In this document: positions 8,549-52,619 of the stretch, in pieces | Layout of the letters: the number at the start of each line of letters is the position of its first letter | Numbering within the stretch: position 1 is the stretch's first letter | Origin: Terriglobia bacterium | GTDB lineage: Bacteria > Acidobacteriota > Terriglobia > Bryobacterales > Bryobacteraceae | Length of the DNA: 64,000 nt | NCBI GenBank assembly: GCA_025363475.1 | Contig: JANYDS010000085.1 | Span: forward strand, 1-64,000 | Direction of reading: 5' to 3' | The notes under the pieces: generated by a model | Seen by the model: the letters and a program-made list of their open reading frames with translations, nothing else | What the model was told of the DNA's origin: nothing | Database searches by the model: none | Position numbers and translations under genes: made by a program

Positions 8549-9166
8549 TTGAATCCAAAGTTTTCCGTTAACGAAACCGGCCCCCGGATCGAACAGTTCC
8601 TCCGCATGATGATTGTGGACGCGGGGTTTGACCTCAGCTTCACTATTGAAGCGGGCGACCACAGCGACCCCGACGAATGCCCGGATCTGATCATTAAATT
8701 CAGCGGTACGGATGTCGACCTGTTGCTTGCCAACCGGGCCGAACTCCTGCTGGCGCTGGAACTGGTAACGCAGGAAGTGCTCCGGCTGCATTCCGATGAT
8801 CATTCGCGCATTTCGTTCGACGCCAATGATTACCGGGCGCTGCGCATCGCCGAACTGCGCATCAGCGCTCAAACCGCGGCAGAAAACGTGAAGCGTACCG
8901 GCACCGCGTTTCGCTTCAACCCGATGAACAGCCGGGAACGGCGCGTGCTGCACATCGCACTCCGAAATGAAACCGATTTGCGCAGCGAGAGTGGTGGCTC
9001 CGGTCCATTCCGGCATGTAATCATTTATCCGGCTGGCATGCCTTCGCTCCCCGACCCGCCCCAGCCGCCTCCGTCGCGTTTCCCGGGCAGCGGTGGCCGT
9101 GATCGCAGCAGTGATCGCAGCAGTGAGCGGGGTAATGACCGTCGCCCGCCGCGCCCCCGCCGCTAA
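8549..9166 (+). CDS. jag: Jag/KhpB-like RNA-binding protein with R3H domain
   Basis: The 205-residue protein follows yidC by 19 bp, the classic place for Jag (SpoIIIJ-associated, KhpB). A KH-like region spans about residues 50-110. An R3H domain follows, recognisable by NPMNSRERRVLHIALRN (about 124-140) and a later GPFRHVIIYP. It binds RNA and in other bacteria affects cell elongation or division. The C-terminal 45 residues are an unstructured tail rich in Pro, Ser, Arg and Asp. The only usable start in frame is TTG at 8549, and mnmE begins directly after its TAA. Confidence 0.88.
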   Translation: MNPKFSVNETGPRIEQFLRMMIVDAGFDLSFTIEAGDHSDPDECPDLIIKFSGTDVDLLLANRAELLLALELVTQEVLRLHSDDHSRISFDANDYRALRIAELRISAQTAAENVKRTGTAFRFNPMNSRERRVLHIALRNETDLRSESGGSGPFRHVIIYPAGMPSLPDPPQPPPSRFPGSGGRDRSSDRSSERGNDRRPPRPRR

Positions 9167-43331: not shown

Positions 43332-44085
43332 CGCGCTCGAATTCCGCATCTCCGCCAGTTACGGCAAAACCGAAGTTCTGCACAGCGTTGCAGGGACCAT
43401 CGCGCCCGGCGAAATCGTAGCGCTGGCAGGCCTGAGCGGCTCCGGCAAGAGTACCCTGGCACTGGCGCTGCTGCGGTTGTTGCATTACAGGGGTGGCTCA
43501 GTTACCGGCAGCATCACCGTGGAGGGCAGGGAACTAACCGGGCTCTCCGAAAGCGCGATGCGCAGTGTGCGTGGCAAGCTGATCGGCTATGTTCCGCAAA
43601 GCCCCGGTACTGCCCTCAACGAACGGCTGAAAGTGCGGACTCTTCTGGAAGAAACCTGGTCTGCCCATGCAGAGGGCGCGGGTTCATTCGGGGCCTTGCT
43701 TGAAAGCGTCCAGTTACCCGGAGATCAAGTTTTCCTCAACAAACGCGCAGGTGAACTCAGTACCGGCCAGGGGCAAAGGCTCCTGATCGCTTTCGGCATC
43801 ATGCACAAGCCCGCTGTGCTGCTGGCGGATGAACCCACCAGTGCGCTCGATGTGATTACCCAGGCGGCCGTACTGAAACTGTTCGCGGAGTTAAATCAGA
43901 AAAACGGAACAGCCATGCTCTTCATCTCGCATGACCTGCTGTCAGTAGCTTCCATCAGCCACCGTGTGGATATTCTGCACGAAGGCAAAATCGTGGAATC
44001 CGGCCCGCCGGGGAAGATTTTCAGTGCGCCGGAGCATCCGTTCACCAGATCACTGGTGGACGCGATGCCCCGCCGCATGGATTAA
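43324..44085 (+). CDS. ABC transporter ATP-binding protein, DppD/OppD-like
   Basis: The 253-residue ATPase has Walker A GLSGSGKSTLAL (near residue 37), a Q-loop region, the signature motif LSTGQGQRLLIAFGIMH and Walker B VLLADEPTSALDV. It lacks the C-terminal oligopeptide/dipeptide transporter extension common in DppD, although it ends HPFTRSLVDAMPRRMD near it. The start is TTG at 43324, inside the end of the preceding gene. Only one ATPase gene is present. Dpp systems usually have two, so this may act as a homodimer or use an ATPase from elsewhere. It converges tightly with gyrA (6 bp). Confidence 0.9.
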   Translation: MNNALEFRISASYGKTEVLHSVAGTIAPGEIVALAGLSGSGKSTLALALLRLLHYRGGSVTGSITVEGRELTGLSESAMRSVRGKLIGYVPQSPGTALNERLKVRTLLEETWSAHAEGAGSFGALLESVQLPGDQVFLNKRAGELSTGQGQRLLIAFGIMHKPAVLLADEPTSALDVITQAAVLKLFAELNQKNGTAMLFISHDLLSVASISHRVDILHEGKIVESGPPGKIFSAPEHPFTRSLVDAMPRRMD

Positions 44086-44091
44086 ATCAAC

Positions 44092-46689
44092 TTATTGAAC
44101 TACAGGCGCCTGTTCTTCCCCGTCTTCCTTCTCAACCGCTTCGGGGATCAAACAAGCCGCCGCCACCTGATCCGGTTCTTCCATCCGCACCAGCCGCACG
44201 CCCTGCGTTGACCTGCCGGCCTGACGGATTTCAGTCGAATCAATCCGGATCATCTTGCCATCACGAGTGACAATCATCAGTTCCGAATCTTCCTTCACCG
44301 AAAGCACGCCCACCACCTTGCCGGTCTTCTTGGTGGTCTTCATGTTGATGACGCCTTTGACGCCGCGGTTAGTAAGCCGATAATCGGTCACCTTAGTCCG
44401 CTTGCCATAGCCGAGTTCAGAGATGGAAAGGATCAAACCATCCTCGCCAATCACTTCCGAACCAACAATGAAATCGCCGGCTGCCAGATCCATCCCGCGC
44501 ACACCGCGCGCCGGACGGCCCATAGCCCGCACCTTGTCTTCCGGGAACCGAATCGCCTGACCATCATGCGAGGCCAGGAAAATGTAATCCTTGCCGGAAG
44601 ACAGCCGTGCCGCAATCAGTTCATCGCCATCATCCACGCCAATTGCGATGATTCCGCGCGCCATCGGATTATCGAACTCTGTAAGTTCAGACTTCTTGAT
44701 GACACCGTCTTTGGTAACCATCACGATGTACTGGTCTGAATCAAACTTACTCACGGGCAGGAAGGCTTTAACGGTCTCATCCGCCTGCAGGTTGATCAGG
44801 TTCGAAATATGCTTGCCCTTGCCCACCGTCGAAGCATCGGGGATCTCATAAATCTTGAGCCAGTAAACCCGGCCCTTGTTCGTAAAGATCAGCAGGTAAT
44901 TATGGGTGGACGAAACGAGGAAATATTCAACAAAATCCTCATTGCGCGTACCCATCCCGATGCGGCCCTTGCCGCCGCGGGTCTGCCGCCGATAGGTATC
45001 AACAGCCGTGCGTTTCAGGTACCCGCCATGGGTCACCGTCACAGCCATATCTTCCACCGCCACCAGATCTTCCAGACGAATCTCGCCCGGGTCATCAATG
45101 ATCTTGGTGCGGCGCTCATCGCCGAACGCTTCCTTCACTTCCATGAGTTCGCTGATCATCAGCGCCTTCAAGACAGCTTCGGAACCCAGGATTTCGAGGT
45201 ACTCGCCAATACGCCGCTGAATATCGCCCAGTTCGTTGGCAATCTTCTCCTGTTCCATGCCGGTAAGGCGCTGCAACTGGAGTTCAATGATGGCTTGAGC
45301 CTGGCGTTCAGAAAGCTGGCGCAGCGGAGCATCTGCCCCTGCCGCCGTCAGGTAAAGATCGTTGAAAATGAATTGCGTAGATGCCGCAACCAGTGATTCC
45401 CGCGCTTCTTTCGGGGAACGCGCGGCGCGGACAATCCGGATCACTTCGTCAATATTGTCGAGCGCAATACGGAACCCAAGCAACAAATGCTCGCGTTCAC
45501 GTGCCTTGCGCAGTTCATAATCGGTCCGGCGGCGCACCACATCAGCGCGGTGCTCAATGAAGTACCGGATCGTCGACAGCAGCCCCAGCTCGCGCGGCTG
45601 ACCGTTCACAATCGAAAGATTGATGATGCCAAAACTGGTCTGCAGCTGGGTGTTCTTGTAGAGGTTGTTGAGTACCACCTCAGCCTGCTCGCCGCGCTTC
45701 AGTTCATAAACGATGCGCATGCCATCGCGATCGCTCTCATCGCGAATTTCCGAGATGCCTTCAATCTTCTTTTCGTTGACCAGCGCAGCCGTATTCTCAA
45801 TCAGGCGCGACTTATTCACCTGATAAGGCAGTTCGCTGACAATAATCTGCTGCCGGTCCTTGCCCATCGGCTCAATATCAGCTTTGGCGCGAATGCGCAG
45901 CGAGCCGCGGCCCGTGCGGAATGCATCGCGGATACCCTGGCGGCCCAGAATGAAACCGCCCGTGGGGAAGTCCGGCCCCAGCACCGTCAGTTCAATCACT
46001 TCAAGCGGTGTGGAAGGTTCGCGGATCAGTTGAATGGTCGCATCAATGATCTCGCTCAGATTATGCGGCGGGATATTGGTAGCCATGCCGACCGCGATAC
46101 CCGACGACCCGTTAACCAGCAGATTGGGAATACGGGTCGGCAGCACTTCCGGCTCGAATTCGCTCTCGTCATAGTTGGGACGGAAATCGACTGTTTCCTT
46201 GTCGATATCCATCATCAGATACATCGCAATCTTCGACAGACGCGCTTCGGTATACCGCATCGCCGCTGGCGGATCGCCATCGACGGAACCGAAATTCCCC
46301 TGACCATCAACCAGCGGATAGCGCATGGCAAACGGCTGCGCCATACGGACCAGTGAATCGTACACAGACGCATCGCCATGCGGATGGAACTTACCCAGCA
46401 CCTCGCCAACGATCTTGGCGCACTTGCGCGTGGGGCGATTCGCCACCAGACCCATCTCGCTCATCCCAAAAAGGATGCGTCGGTGAACGGGCTTCAGACC
46501 ATCACGAATATCGGGTAAAGCACGGCCCACAATTACGCTCATCGCGTAATCGAGGTACGAGCGTTTCATCTCGTCTTCGATGTTGATCTGGATGTGGTTA
46601 TTGGCACCATCGCCACCACCACCTTCCGGAGGCAGCGGTAACTGTGGAGGCGCAGGTGGACCCTGCGGAGGATTGTCCTGTTCAGCCAT
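44092..46689 (-). CDS. gyrA: DNA gyrase subunit A
   Basis: The 865-residue protein cuts and rejoins DNA as part of the type II topoisomerase that introduces negative supercoils. The catalytic Tyr is Y146 in [10 protein letters not shown]. The quinolone-determining region reads [13 protein letters not shown], with Ala107 at the position of E. coli Ser83. The C-terminal domain has the GyrA box QTRGGKG (near residue 560), so it is gyrase and not topoisomerase IV. The N-terminus has an extra Pro/Gly-rich 30 residues before the conserved [18 protein letters not shown]. gyrB is not adjacent. Confidence 0.97.
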
Positions 46690-46711
46690 GTGTTTTTTGA
46701 GTTTAAGTCCT

Positions 46712-46717
46712 ATTATA
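46712..46717 (-). promoter_or_regulatory. candidate gyrA -10 box
   Basis: TATAAT reads on the minus strand at 46717-46712, 22 bp before the gyrA ATG (46689). The upstream hexamer at 17-bp spacing, TTCGCC, is a poor -35. The leader is short and has no obvious Shine-Dalgarno. Confidence 0.5.
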
Positions 46718-47088
46718 GCAGGAATTTAGGCGTTGGCGAACGCTCAGTTTCGAATCGACGGGAGAGGTTCGGGTGGTCAATTGAGGCAAAGATGTAGCTG
46801 GCGGATACGCACGGACCGAGGCGGACAGCTAATCAGTGCCACAGGCAGCGAAGCAGGTCGGTGCACTGGTTGCGGGCTAGTCTGGTTCTCGGGAGGCAGA
46901 GGGAGAAGCGCAAGCGTATATTATTGCAGGGCATGAGTTCCGGAAATGAAGGTTGTCTCATCCGAGTTAAGCAACACAATAGCCTTGATTAGCCTTGATC
47001 GATTGCTGCGCGATCCCGCCAATGCGGTCTCCTGCAATTTAAGGACTGGAAATCCGGGAATCCTGGCAGGAAATGAAGTGGGCATATC
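46718..47088. other. intergenic region between gyrA and the norZ remnant
   Basis: No credible gene is seen. A tandem direct repeat TAGCCTTGAT occurs at 46980-46989 and 46990-46999, about 90 bp before the norZ start, and could be a regulator site. A-rich purine stretches (GGCAGGAAATGAAG) lie just before ATG 47089. Confidence 0.4.
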
Positions 47089-49410
47089 ATGATCGACACG
47101 TCTGCCGACGCTGCGAGTCTTTCTCCGTGGTGGAGGCACTCGGCCATCCTCGTAATGATCGCTGGCTTCTCGGTTCTATCCTTTATCACAGTCCTGACCT
47201 ACACGAACGCTCCACCCATCCCCGGACAGGTCACGGATGGAACGGGGACTGTGGTGTTTACCGGAGCCGACATCCAAAAGGGCCAGGGGGTTTTCCTCAA
47301 GTACGGTCTCATGGAGCACGGGAGCCTGTGGGGCCATGGGGCTTACCTGGGTCCTGATTACAGCGCGGAGTACCTGCATCGGCTCAGCGAGGTAACTCGG
47401 GATACGATCGCGACCGGGAAGTACGGCAAACTCTTTGCGCAGCTCTCGCCTGACGAGCAGAGCGCCGTATCTGCGCGGACGATAACAGTGCTTAAGGAAA
47501 ACCGGTATGAACCAGCTTCGCGAACTCTCCGGTTTGCGCCGGGCGAGGTAGCCGCCTACCACATACAACTTCCCGAGTGGAGTGAGTACTTCACCAGGAA
47601 GGACGCCGCTCCCGGGCTGCCAGCCAACTATATTCGGGACCCCGGAGAGCGTAAAGCTCTGACGGCCTACTTCGCCTGGGCGGCTTGGGCCACAGCGGCG
47701 AATCGCCCTGGGAAGGATTACTCGTAAACCAACAACTGGCCATACGAGCCCATGGTGGGCAACCGTCCTTCCACCGAGGCCTATGTTTGGAGCGCCTTGA
47801 GTCTGATCACCCTCCTGTCAGGGATAGGTTTGATCCTCTTCGTCGTCGGCAAGTTCGACTACCTGGGCTGGAAGGGCGAGGGTGCCAGCTCCCAAATCAT
47901 GTATTCAGCCTTATCCCGCCCGAAAATATCTCCTCCTGCTTTGAATCTCACGCCCAGTGAGTGGGCTACGGGATGGTTCTTCGGCATCGTTCTTCGGCAT
48001 CGTGGCTCTCCTGTTCCTGGCTCAGGCATTTCTGGGAGGCCTGCTCACCCACTATCGGGTGGAGACAGGAGCTTTTTACGGGTTCGACATCGCCCGCTGG
48101 CTGCCCTACAACCTGGCGCGCACCGGGCACGTCCAACTCGCCATCTTCTGGATTGCAACGGCCTGGGTGGGCGGCGGCCTGTTCCTGGCGTCGTGGGTCG
48201 GTGGTGAGGAGCCCAGACACCAAAAGACCGGTGTCTACGCACTCCACGGGGCGCTCGTGGTGGTCGTCGTTGGCAGCTTGGGAGGCGAGTTCCTCGGCAT
48301 CAACGACAAGCTGGGGCATCTCTGGTTCTGGTTTGGTCACCAGGGTTCCGAGTACCTGGACCTCGGCCGGTTCTGGCAGTTCCTGTTGGCAATTGGCTTC
48401 CTCTTCTGGCTGTTTCTGATGTATCGGGCGCTCAAGCCCGCCTTCAGGATCCCCGACAAGCGCGAACTGTCCTCACTCTTCCTCTACGCGGCCGTGGCCA
48501 TTCCTGTCTTCTACCTGCCTGCCCTTTTGTACGGCCCTGACACGAACTTCGCCGTCATTGACAACTGGCGCTTCTGGATCATCCATCTCTGGGTGGAGGG
48601 ATTCTTCGAAATTTTTGCGACCGTGCTGGTGGCCATCATGTTCCATCAGATGGGGGTTGTCAGCGCCAGAACAGCCACGCGTCTGATCTACCTGGATGCC
48701 ATCCTGTATCTCACCGGCGGGATTATCGGCACAGGCCACCATTGGTACTTCACGGGCAAGGGACGCTCAACATGGGCCTGGCGTCGTGCTTCTCCGCTCT
48801 GGAAGTTGTGCCTCTGACGCTTTTTACTCTCGACGCCGGGGATTTCATCAAGCTGAGTAAAGCGCGGACTTCTCCACGCGATCACGATATGATCTCCGGC
48901 CAGAAATGGTCCATCTACCTCCTCATGGCCGTCGGTGTCTGGAACTTTGTCGGCGCGGGGGTCTTCGGTTTTCTGATCAACCTGCCAATCGTGTCCTACT
49001 TCGAGGTTGGCACCACGCTCACTGCCAATCACGCGCATGCTGCAATGTTTGGTGTGTTTGGGATGTTGGCCCTGGCAGTCCTGGTCTTCTGCCTCAGGGC
49101 CATGCAATCCGACACTATATGGGAGGGGACGGAGAAGTTCGTCCGGGTGGGCTTCCGGGGTGCTAATGCGGGCCTTGCGCTCATGGTCATCCTGGATCTG
49201 TTCCCCGGAGGAGTGATCCAGCTCTGGGATTCCATCGCCAACGGGTATTGGCACGCGCGCCGTCTGACATTTCTGATGGGCGGCACCTACCACAAGCTGG
49301 AATGGCTGCGCGTGGTGGGGGATATGGTCTTCCTCTTCGCCGGCGCGCTGCCCATCACGCTCGGCGCGCTGCGCAGTGTGTGGAAAAGGGAGCTCTCCCC
49401 CATGGCCTGA
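47089..49410 (+). pseudogene. quinol-dependent nitric oxide reductase (qNor), inactivated by three lesions
   Basis: The combined translation is a nearly complete qNorB (NorZ) of about 770 residues. The N-terminal fused domain (IPGQVTDGTGTVVFTGADIQ, then KGQGVFLKYGLMEHGSLWGH) is followed by a heme-copper oxidase-like core. The core keeps its His-rich motifs: TGHVQLAIFWIATAW, HLWVEGFFEIFATV, IIGTGHHWYFTG and ANHAHAAMFGVFG. The lesions are: TAA at 47725-47727, where Tyr is expected (GKDYS-stop-TNNWPYEP); a 13-bp tandem duplication of TTCTTCGGCATCG (47977-47989 and 47990-48002) that shifts frame; and a one-base loss at about 48753-48762 (YFTGQGTLNMG expected). The remaining frames are well conserved, so inactivation seems recent. 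It would have reduced NO to N2O in the membrane. Confidence 0.9.
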
Positions 49411-49564
49411 AGGCTGCACCCCACCGGAATCCCCGGAGCGCCCGCAAGGCCGGAATACTGTGCGGAATTGACCGAGACGATCATCCCAACCGGAAGCTGC
49501 ACGGCAGGCGTGGAACCCAGCATCGATATCAGCCAGGTACCGTTGAGTCGAGGTCCCAGAGGTG

Positions 49565-49810
49565 CTGGCGAGCGTGATCTTCCACTGGCCTGGCGCGGCA
49601 GACTTTCTCGTTGGTCTCAATCAAAGTCCGGCTCAGATCCTGATACGTTCGGAAACGGGCGATCTCTCGCTCGGCTTTACGCTGAGCAGCCTGGGCTCGG
49701 AAAGATCTCCGTAACCGTCTTGCCCTGCAACTTGTAAGTCAGCCGCAGATTGGGACCATGGCCAGGATCGTCCGGGTTCCTCGTGGCGTCCTTGTCGAGT
49801 AAGTCCGACC
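49565..49810 (-). pseudogene. DUF6788-like, transposase-associated protein remnant
   Basis: On the minus strand, one frame (from about 49806) reads RNPDDPGHGPNLRLTYKLQG and KTVTEIF. A second frame continues AQRKAEREIARFRTYQDLSR, TLIETNEKVCRARPVE. This pattern (PGHGPN, TYK.QGKTVTE, QKAEREIAEFR) is one I recall from DUF6788-type proteins common in acidobacteria. One frameshift separates the parts, and the N-terminal CGKP-type motif is missing. It is fused at its upstream side to another gene remnant. Confidence 0.55.
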
Positions 49811-50245
49811 GGAGTAGTCCGAGTCGTTCGACTGGGGATTCGCTTTGATTTGGGGGGGAGGACGAAATGCAAAACGAGATCCGAAGCCGATGATTCCTAC
49901 CGTCGCGTCTTGTCCATCGCAACCCGGAATGGTCCGGTCCAGAGGATCCAGCGTCACTGTAGTTCCAGACGAATTCCCGATCTTGAGCCGCACACTCTTG
50001 TAGCCTGCCCTTCGGATCACCATCGCGGATGCCTTTGTGGCCACTTCGAAGCTCCCGTTCAGTTCGGTATTTCGGTCCAGAGGATTGCGGTCCGGTGTGA
50101 TTAAATTGGGCTCCAGAGATGGGGCGTCCATCGGGATCGAGGACAACGCCTGACATTAATGAAATTGCGGCAACAGGAGTTCCTGATTCGTCTGTGCCTG
50201 TATCTGCGAGACGGCAAGAATTACGCTCATGACAAGGGTTCGCAT
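49790..50245 (-). pseudogene. exported CarboxypepD_reg-like protein, frameshifted and truncated
   Basis: ATG 50245 begins a signal peptide (MRTLVMSVILAVSQIQAQ) that soon meets a stop. In another frame SGVVLDPDGRPISGAQFNHT continues a carboxypeptidase regulatory-like beta-sandwich. In a third, NTELNGSFEVATKASAMVIR, RAGYKSVRLKIGNSSGTTVT and GIIGFGSRFAFRPPP carry on toward about 49800. At least two indels are required. The 3' end is lost where the DUF6788-like remnant starts. Similar exported proteins occur widely in acidobacteria. Confidence 0.6.
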
Positions 50246-50251
50246 AAGTCT

Positions 50252-52579
50252 CTATTTTGCTATTGCCGCCTGCAGGGATTTCACTCGTTCTTCGGACCCC
50301 ATGAAAATGTTCGTCGATACCTGCCGATATTTGAGCATCTGGCGGTAAAGGTAATCGTCGAGCGTGGCGTTGATTCCCCAGCCGGCAAGATAGGAAAGTT
50401 TGAGGTCGGCATCGCGGTTGATGGGGGAGCCTTTAGTCCACTGGCCCACGTCGGAGTGCTGGCCCGCGTAGGTGGACAACAGGTCCTGAGAACTGCCCAC
50501 GCCAACTTCTTTCAGTGATTGCAGGACCGGCTGATAGTCGGCCCGGTCGAGGCGTTGAGCTACTTCGTCGAGGTTGATCTTCAGCGGTTCCAGCTGGCCC
50601 ATGAAGACCATATCGTAGCCGAGTCCCTCGCGCGTGTTCGCCCACACCGTGGCATACGGAAAGGCGTCAAAGAAAGTCTCCAGCTCGCTCTTGATGGTGG
50701 CCTCGTCGGTTTCATACAGCGGCACGTAGAGCGAGAAATAGCCGCCGGGGTTGAGGTGGCTCTTGACGGATTCGAAGTACTCCTTCGAGTAGAGCGCAGC
50801 GGTGCCTTTGACAAAAACATCCAGCGGGTCAGAGGCGATGATGTCGAATTTTTCCTTCGTCGTAAGCAGGTAGTGGCGGGCATCGTCAAAAACGACATGT
50901 GTTTTCGAATTGAGAAAAACGTTGTAATCCTGCTTGCCGAAGAACTCGGTCGAGGTGGGCGGGATCACCGGTTCAATTTCGCAAATGGTGATTTTCTCTA
51001 TTCCAGGGTAGCGCGTGAACGTACCCGCGGATACGCCCGCGCCGAAGCCAATGCCCAGTACGGATTTTGGATTGGGATGAAGAATACCAGGCAGATGGCC
51101 CACCATGCGCTGCAGTTTCATGTCGAAAATTTCAGTAGTGGCTTCGACATGGCCGTTGACGTTGACGTAAATGGTTCCGTTGTTCCAGCGGGAAATCGCG
51201 ACCGACGAATTGCGCCCTTCCACCACTTTGAGGATGGTGGATTGTCCGGTATTGCGAACCATCTGGCGTCCGTAAGCGATCAGTTCACCCGGCGTTTCAG
51301 GCACGCCCCAGGCAAGAGCGATGGCGAGGACGGCAGTGATGCCGGTAATCAGTGCGCGGCTCTGGAACGCAATGATGCCACTCAGCGCCGACAGGATCAG
51401 GATGAGGCGCGTGGAGTTTTGTGTGCCAATCCATGGGATCAGGAACAGACTCACCGCGAGTGCGCCAATAATGCCCCCGAAGGTGTTAGCTGCGTAGATG
51501 TTGCCGGTCACGCGTGAAGGGTCTTTGTCTGTTGACCTGACCGCCGCCGCGCAGGCCAGCGGAAAGCTCGCACCCCAGAGCAGGGCAGGGGGCAGAATGG
51601 CCCAGACGCAACGTTTGAAGTCGAGCTGGAACATCACCCAGGGGCTATTGGTGGTGAGCACTTCGTCCTGCCAGAACGGGAGCACTTTGGTGATCAGCAA
51701 TGCAGTCCAGAGGATGCCCAGGATCAGGAATATCTGTGACCAGCCAAGCGCAATGCGGGGGCGGACGTACTTAATGATGGGAGATGCTGCTGCGCCGCCG
51801 ATTGCAATCCCAATGAGGAACACGGCGAGGATGATCGAAAAAACGTAGACCGTGGCGAGGAGCAGCATGCCCATCAGGCGCGTCCAGATGACCTCGGCTC
51901 CGAGGGCGCAGGCTCCGGAGAGCGCCGCTACGGCATAGATTTTCCAAAGCGCAATATCGGCCTCTGCAGCGGGAACTACAGGCTCCACCAGAGGTGCTTC
52001 AGCGTTCGGTTTGCTTGAAGCCAACAGCCAGCTTGCAGCGGCGACGGCGATGTTCAGCGCGGCTGCCGCATATGCCGCCGTAGCCATATCGAAAACTCGC
52101 AGCAGGTAGAAACCGGCGAAGAGACAACCGAAGACCGCACCGGCGGTATTGGCTCCATACAGGGCCGGAGTGGCGTTCACCCAGCGGACGATGGCGGGCA
52201 GTGATGCGCCCATCAGGATGGTGGAGGGCAGCATCGCAATGGCGGCGATCACGGCGCGCAGCAGCAGGCCCGTCATGCCGTTTTCGGCTCCCACGATGTA
52301 GGCGCGGCTAATGAGGGGCATCGCAAACGTGACGACAATGCCCAGGATGGCGATGCCGAATTCAATGGCGGCGTAGACACGCAGAGGGTGCTTGCCTGCG
52401 AGCCTGAGGCGGGGGAACCAGAGACTACCGATGCAGAGTCCGCCCATGTAGGTGGCGAGCAGGATTCCGAGGGAGACTGAGGTGGACCCGAGTGCCAGTT
52501 GCAGTTGCTGGTACCAGGCGACTTCATATATGAGCGCGGAACAGCCGCTGGCTGCGAACAGGAGTAGGATGAGGGGCAA
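50252..52579 (-). CDS. fused MFS-like membrane and spermidine synthase-like protein
   Basis: The 775-residue protein combines about 12-13 TM helices (residues 1-430) with a C-terminal SpeE-like methyltransferase fold. The latter has the SAM-site-like VLGIGFGAGVSAGTFTRYPG (near 500), ICEIEPVI and FDDARHYLLTTKEKFDII ASDPLD motifs. The family is annotated as fused MFS/spermidine synthase; its reaction is not established. The start is TTG at 52579, 40 bp after the ABC permease gene, and it may be the last gene of the polysaccharide unit. Confidence 0.85.
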   Translation of the reverse strand: MPLILLLFAASGCSALIYEVAWYQQLQLALGSTSVSLGILLATYMGGLCIGSLWFPRLRLAGKHPLRVYAAIEFGIAILGIVVTFAMPLISRAYIVGAENGMTGLLLRAVIAAIAMLPSTILMGASLPAIVRWVNATPALYGANTAGAVFGCLFAGFYLLRVFDMATAAYAAAALNIAVAAASWLLASSKPNAEAPLVEPVVPAAEADIALWKIYAVAALSGACALGAEVIWTRLMGMLLLATVYVFSIILAVFLIGIAIGGAAASPIIKYVRPRIALGWSQIFLILGILWTALLITKVLPFWQDEVLTTNSPWVMFQLDFKRCVWAILPPALLWGASFPLACAAAVRSTDKDPSRVTGNIYAANTFGGIIGALAVSLFLIPWIGTQNSTRLILILSALSGIIAFQSRALITGITAVLAIALAWGVPETPGELIAYGRQMVRNTGQSTILKVVEGRNSSVAISRWNNGTIYVNVNGHVEATTEIFDMKLQRMVGHLPGILHPNPKSVLGIGFGAGVSAGTFTRYPGIEKITICEIEPVIPPTSTEFFGKQDYNVFLNSKTHVVFDDARHYLLTTKEKFDIIASDPLDVFVKGTAALYSKEYFESVKSHLNPGGYFSLYVPLYETDEATIKSELETFFDAFPYATVWANTREGLGYDMVFMGQLEPLKINLDEVAQRLDRADYQPVLQSLKEVGVGSSQDLLSTYAGQHSDVGQWTKGSPINRDADLKLSYLAGWGINATLDDYLYRQMLKYRQVSTNIFMGSEERVKSLQAAIAK

Positions 52580-52619
52580 TTGGTGAGGTTATCACGCGTC
52601 GCCGAAAAGATAGACCAGA

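Follow-up and report, generated by a model that had tools for sequence, protein, structure and literature searches.

A norZ gene for quinol-dependent nitric oxide reductase in a Terriglobia bacterium, very probably inactivated in the recent past

Quinol-dependent nitric oxide reductase (qNor) is encoded by norZ. In the genome of a Terriglobia bacterium, a norZ locus occupies positions 47089-49410 on the + strand of the window, which is the whole stretch of 64,000 nucleotides that was analysed. The coding sequence is interrupted in three places, which raises the question of whether the organism has lost this gene, whether the interruptions are errors in the assembly, or whether the gene still works in separate parts. 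The host assembly comprises 4.16 Mb in 96 contigs and is 96.3% complete. Here, we describe the gene and its lesions, the intact relatives with which it was compared, and the evidence on selection, gene movement and physiological role.

The gene, its family and its lesions

The features of the locus are collected in Table 1. Pieces A and B (47089-47976) share one frame with piece D, and piece C lies in another.

Table 1. Coordinates of the features of the norZ locus and its surroundings in the window
Feature	Position	Strand	Description
Tandem duplication	9099-9126		Exact, 12 bp, 2.3 copies, inside an open frame of 257 codons
Flanking gene	44092-46689		Presumably gyrA-like; upstream side of norZ
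Upstream stretch	46901..47088	+	Common to L039 and G219 (L166); both alignments begin at 46901
Tandem duplication	46980..46999	+	Exact, TAGCCTTGAT x2, 10 bp; 89 bases upstream of the start codon
norZ piece A	47089..47724	+	Start codon, N-terminal part, cytochrome-c-like domain; PF22085 NorB_cytochrome_c-like, 177 bits
Lesion 1	47725..47727	+	In-frame stop TAA; kin have one sense codon at the same place
norZ piece B	47728..47976	+	Frame of piece A
Lesion 2	47977..48002	+	Exact 13-bp tandem duplication, TTCTTCGGCATCG x2; kin carry the segment once
norZ piece C	47990..48757	+	Shifted frame; first part of the catalytic core; PF00115 COX1, 80 bits (47990-48760)
Lesion 3	48757..48766	+	Shift of frame; kin have one base more
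norZ piece D	48766..49410	+	Rest of the catalytic core to the stop codon; frame of A and B regained; PF00115 COX1, 62 bits (48742-49410)
Flanking gene	50252-52579		Spermidine-synthase domain; other side of norZ

A sequence-only reading had named this gene a qNor, and the Pfam domains, the PDB match and an alignment to the solved structure 3ayf confirm the name. The PF22085 domain of piece A and the PF00115 domain of pieces C and D lie together on one chain in the intact kin locus L038, which aligns to Geobacillus qNor over residues 22-756 (E 1.3e-169). The best PDB matches of piece C (47990-48760) are solved qNor chains, with 3ayf at E 3e-71. Piece B taken singly has no Pfam match, and an NCBIfam scan at E 0.001 gave no match for the window pieces or for three intact kin. 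Identity to the eight closest intact kin (L037-L044) is 78-88% for piece A, 69-82% for piece B, 83-91% for the middle piece of norZ and 78-89% for piece D; a 7-residue segment in piece B is common to the window and L038 and is absent from the other seven.

The counterparts of His328, Glu332, Phe336 and Asp746 (3ayf numbering, aligned through L038), all four of them quinol-site residues, are retained in the window pieces, as are the HLWVEG..E and GHH motifs. The His and the Asp of that site are named in passages of PMC3413370. The same passages place putative NO dismutases (Nod) in a cluster within qNor, so the gene might have been a Nod, or some other qNor variant, instead of an NO reductase. 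In the putative Nod described there, the proper quinol site is lost, a coordinating His is replaced by Asn and a catalytic Glu by Gln; the window retains the equivalents of all four residues and both motifs, by which a Nod identity was ruled out, and we hold this alternative to be extremely unlikely. The architecture, quinol-site residues and catalytic motifs resemble those of Geobacillus stearothermophilus qNor/NorZ (PDB 3ayf, 3ayg; organism according to passages of PMC3413370), from which the window copy differs in that one stop and two frame shifts interrupt it. By sequence, the gene family is qNor (NorZ), and quinol-driven reduction of NO to N2O is a predicted activity only.

The stop codon, the 13-bp duplication and the one-base loss reported in the sequence-only reading are all present at the places that it gave. 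The 13-bp repeat tract spans 47976-48003, one base beyond both units on each side. Translation from piece A stops at the TAA of lesion 1, and the frame of piece B runs to a stop at 48205-48207; the two indels cancel downstream of lesion 3, leaving the stretch between them misread. These lesions are not a product of chance, because the four pieces together align over their whole length with relatives that have a single frame. Set against intact orthologues, the lesions are inactivating, as expected of a pseudogene. One stop and two frame changes stand where a qNor has an unbroken frame, and the locus is therefore a broken gene of the qNor family, not a working member.

Intact relatives and the case against an artefact

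The sequence-only reading had proposed to test whether relatives keep an intact norZ, and they do. The test covered 109 kin loci, taken from two lists of 29 and 80, the second being the best 80 of at least 569 confirmed matches; judged by their length, five contigs are present in both lists, and all five are intact. One frame without a stop runs over at least 650 residues in 99 of the 109 loci examined. The remaining ten comprise four cut only by contig ends (L075, L078, L097, L098), two whose frame changes at an N gap (L018, L064) and four with one apparent lesion each, which is a frame change in L034 and L105 and an in-frame stop in L086 and L099. No kin locus among the 109 has more than one lesion in the part of the gene present. 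The closest genomes of the order to piece C are G183 (91%), G162 (89%), G114 (87%), G043 (86%) and G079 (84%), of which G043 and G114 are placed in the window's family; their open frames are 765-800 residues long. The norZ genes of other Acidobacteriota (L037-L044) have intact frames whereas the window copy is broken, and neighbouring DNA is not common to both.

The breaks might instead come from assembly or sequencing error or from a strain chimera, the organism's own gene being intact. The single lesions and the changes at N gaps among the kin indicate that such errors or lesions do occur in comparable assemblies. In the window, however, three separate lesions of different kinds fall in one gene, a number reached in no other locus examined, and short-read errors do not usually take the form of an exact 13-bp duplication. 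In each of the two flanking genes, moreover, the reading frame is unbroken throughout, and the alignment with relatives covers nearly the whole gene. This explanation is accordingly unlikely in our judgement.

It is also conceivable that the split gene works, with two polypeptides assembling as NorC and NorB do and frameshifting bridging the rest. The stop does lie close to where the PF22085 domain ends and separates the cytochrome-c-like domain from the catalytic part, and passages of PMC3413370 liken the fold of the N-terminal part of qNor to that of the cytochrome c domain of cNor. Lesions 2 and 3, however, fall within the catalytic core or at its edge, so that two programmed frameshifts would be needed, and the frame of piece B ends in a stop. 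Where kin are interrupted at a comparable position, the cause is an N gap in L018 and one indel in each of L034 and L105. More widely, the similar-looking breaks of kin proved to be either N gaps (L018, L064) or, in L034, L105, L086 and L099, one lesion per locus, and the idea of a working split gene or programmed frameshift was rejected. It is very unlikely, and recent inactivation remains the preferred reading.

Tandem duplications, selection and the age of the probable inactivation

Lesion 2 has a counterpart just upstream of the gene, an exact 10-bp tandem duplication missing from the list of the sequence-only reading. At 46980-46999, both aligning relatives, L039 and G219 (L166), have 10 bases fewer, and the window's second copy is therefore probably new. 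The presence of this second exact duplication also counts against an assembly error. The window holds three exact tandem duplications of period 10-40 (periods 12, 10 and 13), the last two at the norZ locus, and the expectation from 100 first-order Markov sequences is 0.05 per 64 kb. In 464 kb of the genome (the window and 20 further stretches), 11 such duplications were counted, and in nine the period is no multiple of three; they are therefore not confined to the norZ locus, which has two within about 1 kb against 11 in 464 kb. Slippage may be the mechanism of the duplications, and the 13-bp duplication could have been born by polymerase slippage or by misalignment at a tiny microhomology. 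Whichever lesion came first would have abolished function and ended selection, and further slippage and point mutations would then have followed.

In a tree of nine sequences, the window groups with L038 with an ultrafast bootstrap of 99. When omega was left free on the window branch of a codon model, it came to 0.143 there and to 0.100 on the other branches, a rise that is not significant (2dlnL 2.86, p about 0.09). Fixing omega on that branch at 1 costs 77.5 units, as compared with 2.9 at 0.20 and 4.7 at 0.22. An omega of 0.143 and the strong rejection of 1 indicate strong purifying selection on the window branch and no long period of neutral drift, and they imply that the inactivation is recent, in support of the earlier claim of recency, provided that the inactivation is real. 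For a loss of function at some point along the branch, the omega values put the part after it at about 5% of the branch length, with an upper bound of about 12%. The branches of intact kin have omegas between 0.068 and 0.186, three of which (0.147-0.186) exceed that of the window, and the window value is therefore no proof of decay. Three other intact kin branches depart from the background more strongly (2dlnL 4.6-5.7).

The substitutions were also compared site by site. At sites where gap-free close kin agree, the window has 24 changes, of which seven are radical (BLOSUM62 -2 or less), as against 0-2 radical changes in each of eight kin. With gap columns left out, changes at kin-invariant sites number 19 in the window and 5-21 in kin, and in private-codon ratios the window is not significantly different from any of its kin. 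At sites at least 97% conserved in 70 intact kin, compared after dropping columns inserted in the window pieces, the window has four deviations, none radical; the intact sequences have a mean of 2.4 and a largest value of 10. Substitutions alone do not prove loss of function, and the lack of a sign of relaxed selection that stands alone speaks for the assembly-error alternative. A very young pseudogene fits all the substitution and omega results. An intact gene with assembly errors would fit the substitutions too, but it is countered by the three unlike lesions in one gene.

A patchily distributed gene and what its probable loss would mean

Matches to piece C at E 1e-10 occur in 99 of the 257 genomes of the order, its own included. 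Within the genus, 13 of the 18 other genomes have no match, and the other five match at 48-50% identity only. When the region 44000-52600 was compared with 12 kin loci, similarity was limited to norZ and to the edges of L039, which is alike for 188 bp upstream and 24 bp downstream of the gene and ends 28 bases later. L039 is 87.7% identical to the window over 46901-49434, and G219 is 71% identical over 46901-47088, a stretch that is likely the promoter region. A search of 237 family genomes with this pre-gene stretch gave one further clear match, in G219, and a 27-base match in G171. The match in G219 marks the start of a further norZ near a contig end (L166 174-463, G219:C557), in another genus of the family; it was found only through the upstream stretch and had been missed by the middle-piece search. 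When 13 close kin loci were set against each other, long similarity was found only in the gene and its short edges, with a few weak stretches of 87-290 bases elsewhere.

The norZ DNA of L039 (3114-5440; Candidatus Acidiferrum typicum, order Acidiferrales) is 93.5% identical to that of L009 (832-3157), which belongs to the window's family, and no other DNA is common to the two in the loci compared. This similarity likely reflects a recent single-gene transfer, and norZ seems, from such comparisons, to move as a single unit. The GC content of norZ is 59.4% and its GC3 is 75%, at the upper edge of eight other genes of the window (GC 55.6-59.6%, GC3 65-75%), and composition therefore lends transfer no support. 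A search of 46690-50260 for flanking repeats or mobile elements gave nothing convincing; a 13-nt inverted pair (92%) with members 2781 nt apart was seen there. Relatives of the two flanking genes lie on different contigs in all 15 same-genus genomes that have both. The 841-base stretch past norZ (49411-50251) is without a convincing gene. A second decayed gene had been suspected there from the list of open reading frames and was set aside, as four minus-strand frames have no Pfam match; one of these frames, searched against the 18 other same-genus genomes, had no match.

Tentatively, the norZ type of Acidobacteriota could be a nomadic single gene that carries about 190 bp of its own upstream DNA, crosses orders and is repeatedly lost, the window copy being caught after it ceased to function but before it was erased, with slippage duplications upstream and in the coding part. 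We offer this broader picture as a possibility and would not count on it.

No other Nor-type gene was found among the six COX1 matches of the assembly. Two of these are norZ pieces C and D, for three the best-fitting model is that of cytochrome c oxidase subunit I, with one over its cut-off, and the sixth is cbb3-like and below the cut-offs. At L004 1471-3878 (G000:C79) there is a divergent gene for a cbb3-like oxidase subunit I and, after it, a gene in which FixO and cytochrome c are fused; both score well below the NCBIfam cut-offs. The genome has matches far below the cut-off only for the CuNIR model and for the NosZ model, the latter having reached its cut-off in none of 14 control genomes, and no match for the Hcp model. 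The sequence-only reading had called the loss a clear physiological change. Such a change is at most a possibility for an accessory gene missing from most of the genus, in a genome with neither a CuNIR or NosZ match at cut-off nor an Hcp match. According to passages of PMC5900883, a survey of acidobacterial genomes, norZ or norBC is also present in strains that lack dissimilatory reductases for nitrate or nitrite, and NO detoxification is suggested for acidobacterial norZ. Because norZ occurs without those reductases in acidobacteria (PMC5900883, same passages), the lost gene was most likely a dispensable one for protection against NO. Most likely it was a patchily gained and dispensable gene of NO detoxification that is now lost, since the 13 same-genus genomes lack a match and similarity among the closest kin is confined to the gene and its short edges.

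Taken as a whole, the locus is very probably a stand-alone norZ, most likely for NO detoxification and of a type spreading patchily in Acidobacteriota, that was recently inactivated in this organism. The cell would thereby have lost the ability to make a qNor, and the search of the assembly gave no further gene of the Nor type. The norB gene of Brucella ovis is, in passages of PMC2677664, a published pseudogene with loss of NO reductase; it is likewise a loss of an NO reductase gene, but in another phylum. No norZ pseudogene in Acidobacteriota was found among the titles and abstract openings of the literature searched. Gain and loss of norZ are expected of an accessory gene, and the case is one of ordinary, well-preserved gene decay; it changes little, because such gain and loss are expected and an NO reductase pseudogene is already published (PMC2677664, same passages). 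A gene-content table that scored this genome as an NO reducer from fragment matches would be wrong. The locus offers a clean example of how an accessory gene for respiration or detoxification was recently lost, with mutational steps that can still be read.
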